Of a stretch of DNA of 64,000 nucleotides, positions 13,672 through 15,365 are shown one piece after another; within the stretch, counting starts at the first letter, position 1; every line of letters starts with the position of its first letter. Source of the stretch: Clavaria fumosa (lineage: Eukaryota > Basidiomycota > Agaricomycetes > Agaricales > Clavariaceae); contig OX637804.1 of the NCBI GenBank assembly GCA_951802425.1, positions 496,001 to 560,000 on the forward strand, in the 5' to 3' direction. The position numbers and the translations under genes were made by a program. The notes under the pieces are model-generated. The model saw nothing but the letters and a program-made list of their open reading frames with translations, did not search any database and was not told the DNA's origin.

Positions 13672-15365
13672 CTAGAACATGTAGTAAAAATCTCGGGAGG
13701 CCTTCCAGATGGTCAAGAAGCTGGCAGGAGTCCCGTACAGGAGGCGCCTCCCCCAGCCCGCAATTCCTCCACTCGTAATCTCCAAGCCACTCTTGCCTGC
13801 TTTCTGCCCTTTCCAGCCACATGAACAAGAGACAGAATAAAAACCAGGCTTTGCCATCTCAGTGCCAATTGTCAGTGTACGAACAGCATGACAGACTGGG
13901 CACTGTGGCGAAATCAGGTCCCCGAGCGGACGGAGATTCTTGTGCCACCAAACATACTCGAGGCCGATGAATGGTGAAAATACCTTGACTGATGTATGGG
14001 CACCGAGGCCCTCTTCCTCTTTCAAAAGTTTGGGGAGAATTCGAACGATGGAAAAACACTCGACGAAATTCTTGATGACAAGTTTCAGCAAAAATGAGGT
14101 TGCCAAGTGTGGATAAAAGTTCGGTTGACCAAACCCGATGATGTGGTTGAAATACTGACTGCTGGTTGTGAGAAAGTAGGCAGAAACTCAAAATAAGCCA
14201 CTTACGCCTTCGCAAACTTTTGCATTGCGAAGAGGGACGCATCCGTCTCCCACATACTCCCACATACCTCCATAATGAGCATCGAGTGTGCACCCTTGGC
14301 AAACGATGTGAGATCTGGCCCAAGAATCGCTTCTAGAAACTAAAAATGAATGTATCCAGATCACTAATATCAAAAATCATGTGAAGAAAGACTTACCACT
14401 CCGATTTCAAGGGCTGTGCCTGGGGTGCAGTGAGGATCGCCACTGTCAGGGTTGGTATGCGTGTATAAAAAGACAAGGAGACGCGTAACTCTCTTTCTGA
14501 ATAAGAGAATAGTAATAAACATCAGAAATTGACTTATAAATAAAAAATAAGACTTACTGTTGAATATGTTTTACAAATTTCGCCAAGATCGACTGGTGCT
14601 TCTGCAACGACTTGATGTCCAATGGAATAACATCCAGCTTGACTTCTAATTCGAGGAATTCCTTTCCCTCTGATTCTGGGGTGTACCACCCACTCAGCGT
14701 GTTCGCCACAGACTTGAAAGGATCACCCCTTTCAGTGATGGAGCTGAGGCGAATATTGACAAGGGCGATTGAGTCGGTGTTTTGGCGTGCGTAGTGTCCT
14801 CGGAGTGTGGCAGGCTTGACTAACCCAAACAGTTGTGGGATGGGTTGATCATCATGGTGAAGGGGCTAAGAGCTCAAAATTTTAGTTCCTACCGCACAAG
14901 GTATGAAAATAAAACCATACATGATAGGGCTCGTTCCGAGCGTCAGACCTGATATGGCAACTCACACACATGAACTTTGTGTTTGCCTGGGCAACCAGGT
15001 GCTGCCCCCCTGGGATACTCAAGCACCTGTCACACATCGTTCATGGACAGTAATCGCAATTTAGAGATAGCCCGCCATTCCCACACCCAGAACACCACTA
15101 TGGGGCAGTCAGGTCAGATCCAATGGCAAATCCAAAGGGGGTCCACTCACCTCATCATTTGCCTCTGGGTCTGCAGGATGAACCGTAGGCTGATCTCCTG
15201 ATCAACACGATCAGAATGGACAGACACACCAGTGCTTACCAGAACGAGAGCAGGATCCTTGCGTGCTGGTGCAGGATCAGCAGACTTGGGATAGTCCTTA
15301 GGCAGGGTGGCTCTCATAGCAGGAGCACCAGATGACCTCTTAGCAGATTGCTTAGTCCTAGCCAT
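13672..15365 (-). CDS. Histone H3-tail mimic protein with zinc fingers, one in-frame TGA
   Basis: My seven-exon model is 15365-15240, 15189-15151, 15097-14921, 14865-14576, 14496-14397, 14339-14206 and 14158-13672. All introns are GT-AG, all phases match, and about 450 codons result. The protein begins MARTKQSAKRSSGAPAMR, close to the H3 tail [14 protein letters not shown]4 and its context are kept, while R8-K9 is inverted to K-R. An acidic linker (ADPEANDE) follows, then a PHD-like zinc finger of four CxxC pairs (Cys 57/60, 69/72, 77/80, 99/102, then His103). A large domain comes next (QLFGLVKPATLRG, FLEAILGPDL, GLGAHTSVKVF, VWWHKNLRPLG), and a C-terminal zinc ribbon (CPVC, CSCGW). I recall similarly built proteins from Agaricomycete genomes, but no assigned function. 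Codon 74 is TGA (15043-15041) in CP-stop-TMC, where CGA would give arginine, so this copy may be a fresh pseudogene. It lies 255 bp upstream of KDZ 1 on the same strand. Confidence 0.72.

Follow-up and report, generated by a model that had tools for sequence, protein, structure and literature searches.

Why would a gene in a mushroom genome encode a protein that begins like the tail of histone H3 and continues into zinc fingers? The question is raised by a gene on the minus strand (15365-13672) of a 64,000-nt stretch of the Clavaria fumosa genome (assembly GCA_951802425.1, contig OX637804.1, positions 496,001-560,000 of the forward strand), hereafter the window, whose positions serve as coordinates throughout. 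Comparison with ten other copies shows that the gene sits inside a 15,785-bp KDZ (Kyakuja-like) DNA transposon with both ends (6031-21815). As read from its sequence and from structural predictions, it encodes an accessory protein of that transposon, composed of an N terminus resembling H3 residues 1-20, a linker, a PHD/ADD-like finger, a predicted caspase/CHAT-like domain and a zinc ribbon. Our preferred reading, held tentatively, is that this may be an anti-silencing, chromatin-directed protease that is restrained or assembled by its own H3 mimic.

Structure and copies of the gene

The coding sequence is 1374 nt long including the stop (457 codons) and is divided into seven GT-AG exons.

15240..15365, minus strand: exon 1; Met, H3-like tail (A1-L20 = 15362-15303), start of the linker
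15151..15189, minus strand: exon 2
14921..15097, minus strand: exon 3; PHD/ADD-like finger, C57-C102 = 15094-14957; TGA codon 74 at 15043-15041 in the window copy
14558..14865, minus strand: exon 4; predicted caspase/CHAT-like domain begins
14397..14496, minus strand: exon 5; His230 at 14459-14457
14206..14339, minus strand: exon 6; Cys276 at 14264-14262
13672..14161, minus strand: exon 7; predicted caspase/CHAT-like domain ends; C-terminal zinc ribbon, C382-C409 = 13902-13819

A preliminary description of the locus had given the same coordinates, N terminus, seven GT-AG exons and CxxC pairs, and was exact on the coordinates and the N terminus. Its uninterrupted frame of about 450 codons does not hold for the window copy, which is stopped by the TGA at codon 74. 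Its claim that the gene structure goes beyond chance is borne out by low ratios of nonsynonymous to synonymous change (dN/dS) and by the tail, frame and introns, which can be traced in paralogues at about 79% and 69% identity. The genome holds 11 near-full-length copies of the gene, the window copy included, and seven of them are open (C4, C2a, C10, C8, C1a, C2b and C5b). The codon-74 TGA is common to the window copy and C7, while the frame of C5a is shifted by one base and C1b lacks a splice donor. More distant paralogues, at about 79% (L029, L031) and 69% (L032-L037) DNA identity, keep the exon plan where covered, although in several the splice sites or frames have decayed or stops have arisen. 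By the Nei-Gojobori method, dN/dS is 0.08-0.14 for the whole gene (six pairs), 0.06-0.32 for codons 1-24 (five computable pairs with few changes) and 0.17-0.89 for the linker, with dS saturated in several pairs and small counts in the tail.

As for the N terminus, position -3 of the MARTKQ start context is A and position +4 is G. An N-terminal extension was considered and rejected, although the frame is open for 46-58 codons upstream (four copies counted). MARTKQ was taken as the start because this upstream sequence is unlike between the main lineages and because paralogues L033 and L034 have no in-frame ATG between the last upstream stop and MARTKQ. A first guess for the intron-1 acceptor (41-42 nt) was dropped because it breaks the frame of the finger, which is restored by the acceptor at GATCAG followed by CC.

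The N terminus resembles residues 1-20 of histone H3

The likeness to H3 spans residues 1-20, beyond which only zero to two of seven residues match (14 tails). Identity over the 20 residues is 11/20 in the window family and 10-16/20 across 19 aligned tails, a table that leaves out P0014, P0005, P0002 and extra copies of included lineages (L031, L033, L035, L037 and near copies). Q5 is kept in all 19 tails; A1, R2, T3 and S10 in 18; G12 and L20 in 17; A7, A15 and R17 in 16; and K4 in 15. The lysines further along are mostly gone, K9 being kept in three tails and K14 and K18 in one each. The Arg in place of K9 that had been noted in the window copy is thus present and part of a family pattern. 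When a 12-row family profile was searched against the PDB, it matched histone H3 with an E value of 3.2e-8 over its first ~50 columns; a two-row profile built solely from C. fumosa sequences reached histone H3 only at E ~0.7. No histone fold was found behind the tail in these profile searches. Since the H3 rows span N-terminal columns only and the body is predicted to fold otherwise, we regard the protein as a mimic and not as a histone.

The degenerate start ATGGCNMGNACNNNNCARNNNGCN has 24 matches in the genome versus none in a reversed control; two of the 24 are host H3 genes and one (L047) is a chance match. The pattern match at C10:2242540 was rejected as chance. Five of five further C. 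fumosa lineages of the family that were read begin with an H3-like tail. One of them, L046, was found through the tail pattern and so is not independent, while the other four were chosen from the P0003 match list irrespective of their tail: L048 starts with MARNKQTAQRSTSG, L049 with MARTKQNPKKTTSG, L050 with MPRTKQLASRSTG and L051 with MARTKQTPKKSTGG. The N terminus of paralogue L037 reads MVRTHQ. Capture of a host H3 exon was also considered. The tails of host genes L038 and L040 are split by an intron near G13 (that of L039 apparently also after K4), and no exon boundary fits such a capture because the tail exon of the mimic is unbroken and the likeness stops at L20.

Homologues in other fungi share the tail and the finger

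Searches for homologues yielded 13 proteins, with members in Earliella, Dichomitus, Ganoderma, Polyporus, Pleurotus and Mycena, plus one fragment; these genera belong to the Polyporales or the Agaricales. These proteins share only 21-29% identity with the window-family protein, and their counts are biased because candidates were picked by shared words, some possibly in the tail. Among the 12 able to show an N terminus, nine have a clean tail, in P0004 it is degenerate, in P0014 it is interrupted by an insertion and in P0005 there is none; homologues with a tail occur in Polyporales and in Pleurotus. The joining of an H3-tail mimic to zinc fingers, which was the core of the preliminary description, is supported by Agaricomycete homologues that share both tail and finger; the absence of such homologues, which would have refuted it, was thus not observed. 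In P0014, from Mycena vitilis, the tail is split into MARTKVTAR, a Gly-rich insert and KSTGGKAPR, and the insert may represent an intron that the gene model has kept.

The finger itself resembles readers of the H3 tail, and might by that likeness bind H3. Profile searches match it to the ADD domain of ATRX and the PHD finger of TRIM33, with which it shares Cys spacing and a CxxC..NGG..CDxC core. Classical PHD fingers are of the Cys4-His-Cys3 type. By contrast with ATRX and TRIM33, the pattern here is Cys8 in C. fumosa and Cys5-His-Cys2 in most polypore rows (one or the other in 9 of 12 rows, with P0005, P0009 and P0013 deviating), and the window-family protein does not reach the Pfam PHD cut-off (PF00628, 9.7 bits versus 24). 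A search of NCBIfam returned nothing confident. From its family signature, we presume that the finger prefers H3 tails unmodified at K4.

A predicted caspase/CHAT-like domain with an invariant His/Cys pair

Between the finger and the zinc ribbon lies what had been described simply as a large domain, for which fold prediction was run. AlphaFold2 and Foldseek predict a caspase/CHAT fold for it on a homologue model, so that the domain is a putative member of clan CD, an assignment that rests mainly on the Dichomitus model. His230 and Cys276 are invariant in 12/12 aligned rows. In the model of P0008, the equivalent H254 and C301, 47 residues apart, lie at or just after the ends of consecutive strands (246-255 and 293-301). 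The predicted fold is that of MALT1, SAVED-CHAT and caspases, whose His and Cys the pair may match in placement; a catalytic role for the pair is putative. In contrast to clan CD peptidases, the domain has no Pfam sequence match, none of the 12 members matching a Pfam peptidase family at E up to 1, and its proteolytic activity is presumptive. Rescoring with VIA-align covers only Foldseek's own candidates, and the finger and ribbon are barely covered.

The gene belongs to a KDZ transposon

The element that carries the gene is laid out as follows.

6031..21815, no strand: KDZ (Kyakuja-like) element; left start common to C4 and C8, right end common to 8/10 other copies
6024..6030, no strand: left target-site duplication (TSD), CGTGGTG
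21816..21822, no strand: right TSD, CGTGGTG
6031..6045, plus strand: left end CACATCGTTCAGTCA, 11/15 inverted match to the right end
21801..21815, minus strand: right end TGACTGAATGGGTTG (as plus strand)
6320..9640, no strand: left subterminal array of ~44-bp tandem repeats
20420..21700, no strand: right subterminal tandem repeats
9736..13443, minus strand: CxC2-KDZ transposase gene (approximate extent, introns not modeled)
12107-13021, minus strand: CxC2 domain, E=6.8e-26
11152-11646, minus strand: KDZ domain (PF18758), E=1.2e-31
16807..20250, plus strand: plus-strand open frames of the element

By its transposase domains, CA..TG ends and 7-bp TSD, the element is a Kyakuja-like KDZ transposon. 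The TSD is exact at 7/7 positions, and the ends match when inverted at 11/15 positions, including 8/8 in their inner part. Both ends are recognized in just one further copy, C8, whose flanks are GGCAGCA and GGCAGCG (6/7 alike); the remaining nine lack one or both recognizable ends. Of the ten other copies, four (C4, C1a, C8 and C5b) have the window-type transposase, and in the other six (C2a, C10, C5a, C7, C1b and C2b) the gene lies within a larger repeated unit with an identical right flank. None of the four plus-strand frames scanned (16807-20250) has a Pfam match at the curated cut-off.

The link to the transposon, which had been called positional only, is closer than that: the gene lies within the element, and at least 58 of 85 family loci have, among the matches listed, a KDZ or TET/JBP match no more than 6 kb away. 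The genome contains at least 185 KDZ matches (150 listed), 64 TET/JBP matches and 85 matches to the family (query P0003, some weak or partial). The 85 family loci are a separate count, consisting of the P0003 matches and 13 loci from the gene-copy search with neighbors merged. Within 6 kb of these loci there is a KDZ match in at least 39 (matches listed) and a TET match in 37, versus 3.6% and 1.7% of random spots in a model where lengths were guessed for three contigs and three contigs were left out; at least 18 loci have both (KDZ matches listed). Conversely, a family gene lies no farther than 6 kb from 36 of the 64 TET matches. There are 21 loci with neither a KDZ nor a TET match within 8 kb among the matches listed, six of which are larger-unit copies.

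The element also bears a sign of DNA methylation. The 11 near copies (13600-15425) differ by 156 rare changes, of which 121 are C>T or G>A transitions. CpG sites, although they account for 140 of the 874 C/G positions, hold 103 of the 121; 64 of the 156 come from copy C5b. Such an excess of CpG transitions is the usual signature of cytosine methylation of the element, and anti-silencing functions would therefore be useful to it.

A proposed self-restrained chromatin protease and its alternatives

How might the modules work together? In the reading that we favor, the protein would protect the element from silencing, working on the histone side as partner to the TET/JBP enzyme found in many related elements. 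The finger would recruit it to H3 tails, probably those unmodified at K4, as the family signature suggests. Its own ARTKQ terminus would compete for the finger pocket, in cis or between molecules, and the bound mimic would keep the protein inactive or assembled until chromatin is reached, where the protease might cleave either the H3 tail or a silencing factor bound to chromatin. Self-inhibition by H3 mimics has precedents, in the parts of the literature consulted, in Swi6/HP1 (PMC7192584) and BAZ2B (PMC5663869). In both there is an H3-like stretch within a chromatin reader, but these are host proteins with an internal mimic (in BAZ2B a lysine-rich linker), whereas here a transposon protein has it as N-terminal residues 1-20. 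A bolder and more doubtful extension is that mushroom KDZ elements could carry a two-armed kit, with TET/JBP acting on methylated DNA and an H3-reading, -imitating and -clipping protease, restrained by its K9-poor mimic, acting on nucleosomes.

Several observations weigh against this reading. The TGA within the first finger interrupts the window copy, and no TET match lies inside the window element. The family loci are mutual copies, so their association counts cannot be taken as independent events. In Pfam, no PHD, CHAT or caspase family is matched with confidence, the best scores being E=0.0057 for an ASH2-type PHD and 0.18 for PHD. Foldseek TM-scores (template-modeling scores) are low, at 0.21-0.27 by query length in the first 20, with a root-mean-square deviation of mostly ~21 for MALT1; a flavin azoreductase is among the 19 matches with E up to 0.001; and a second model (Mycena) is weaker, its best Foldseek matches being Argonautes. 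AlphaFold2 leaves the tail disordered (predicted local distance difference test score, pLDDT, <40) and not docked on the finger. In the gene models, P0005 is without the tail, P0009 without most of the finger and P0012 without the protease-like domain. Finally, three of the 19 tails, all from paralogues of the C. fumosa genome, have R4, one has Q4, and L050 begins with Pro; because of the three R4 paralogues, K4 itself is not obligatory.

Alternatively, the displayed H3 tail could be bait that, by titration or diversion, keeps the host's H3-tail enzymes and readers away from the element. A start context and homologue gene models that place the mimic at the N terminus speak for this, as do the 15/19 tails with K4 versus 3/19 with K9; such a tail could not carry the K9 heterochromatin mark because K9, K14 and K18 are mostly missing. 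However, a soluble protein must outcompete abundant nucleosomal H3, and the finger and protease-like domain are left unexplained. Since a reader-like finger and a protease-like domain are part of the protein itself, and three C. fumosa tails have R4, a role as bait or substrate is not our first choice, and we consider it unlikely. The prospects are similarly slight for a cofactor of target-site selection or transposition, in which finger and tail would anchor the transposition complex to chromatin of a given state, with the transposase or a partner processed by the protease-like domain. In its favor, among the KDZ matches listed, at least 39 of the 85 family loci have one no more than 6 kb away, and 21 of these 39 have no TET match within that distance; but tethering does not require H3 mimicry.

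It is improbable that the tail is the protease's propeptide or self-cleavage site, H3-like because H3 is the substrate. L20 is kept in 17/19 tails and the likeness ends there, adjoining the site after A21 at which H3 is reported to be clipped in other organisms; in Plasmodium, clipping between A21 and S22 is described as reminiscent of mouse stem cells in the part of PMC12269491 consulted. This boundary may nonetheless mark a binding requirement only. Equally improbable is a captured host H3 fragment whose sole present role is that of a basic, disordered or nuclear-targeting leader: the likeness does include A15, R17 and L20, which have no obvious reader contact, but conservation is position-specific despite 21-29% identity of other-species members, K9, K14 and K18 are lost and not kept, and the intron near G13 of host H3 genes is absent from the mimic exon.

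Relation to known systems

The self-restrained protease that we favor has relatives for each of its parts, yet the combination fits no known kind that we found: it occurs here in a transposon, with homologues from two mushroom orders. According to the sections of Kojima 2025 (PMC12730594) on Kyakuja TET elements, Kyakuja has CA..TG ends and a 7-bp TSD with no terminal inverted repeats reported, and the genes that transposons carry include those for histone methyltransferases and for TET/JBP dioxygenases, to which a role against DNA methylation is ascribed. The window element resembles these TET-carrying Kyakuja elements in its KDZ transposase, ends, TSD and accessory chromatin-type gene; it differs from them, as described there, in having no TET match, an H3-mimic gene and imperfect inverted repeat ends. 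Those sections make no mention of a histone mimic. The open-access literature searched yielded no transposon H3-mimic protein, an earlier remark being possible in the original KDZ-defining paper, and the arrangement of finger, CHAT-like domain and zinc ribbon was not met elsewhere in the searches made. Like the viral histone mimics seen in part of the literature (e.g., hepatitis delta antigen), this is a parasite protein resembling a histone; unlike them, it belongs to a cellular DNA transposon and has its own reader-like and protease-like domains.

If our reading is correct, viral histone mimicry would have a counterpart in mobile elements, and the family would offer both a candidate protease of the H3 tail with its inhibitor built in and a set of natural variants showing which H3 residues readers need (ARTKQ kept; K9, K14 and K18 dropped). 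Since the family spans Polyporales and Agaricales, and KDZ genes are very numerous in C. fumosa, these ideas are testable in several mushrooms.

Further observations on the element and its copies

The larger repeated unit (L011-L014, L019-L026) spans up to all of the 20 kb fetched at 98-99% likeness, and in its copies additional KDZ and TET matches lie at a distance of ~8-23 kb from the gene. The right part of the plus-strand frames (19416 on) is common to both element types; a 2-oxoglutarate (2OG)/JmjC-like reading of an open frame in the second type found no support. At C7:1333074-1338479, C8:2324350-2329749 and C9:2155418-2160900, two family genes flank a TET match, with a KDZ match in addition; L046 is the MARTKQ gene of the first locus and the only gene read among the three. 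At eight loci the query is present only with its first 341 bp, corresponding to the gene's 3' end; all eight are ~2 kb from a KDZ match and at most 0.25 Mb from a contig end (C1:135344, C4:85853, C4:4459849, C5:83981, C6:3562384, C11:2660209, C12:92207 and C14:106586). A second, decayed family member lies in C10 just right of the Kyakuja-like end. In the window, 22555-24581, right of the element, is a remnant of another KDZ gene (KDZ match 24010-24384, three TGA), 67-71% alike to the window-element transposase region in other copies. Copy C8 (L015) has a 0.9-kb inversion within the transposase gene, equivalent to 10266-11178 of the window.
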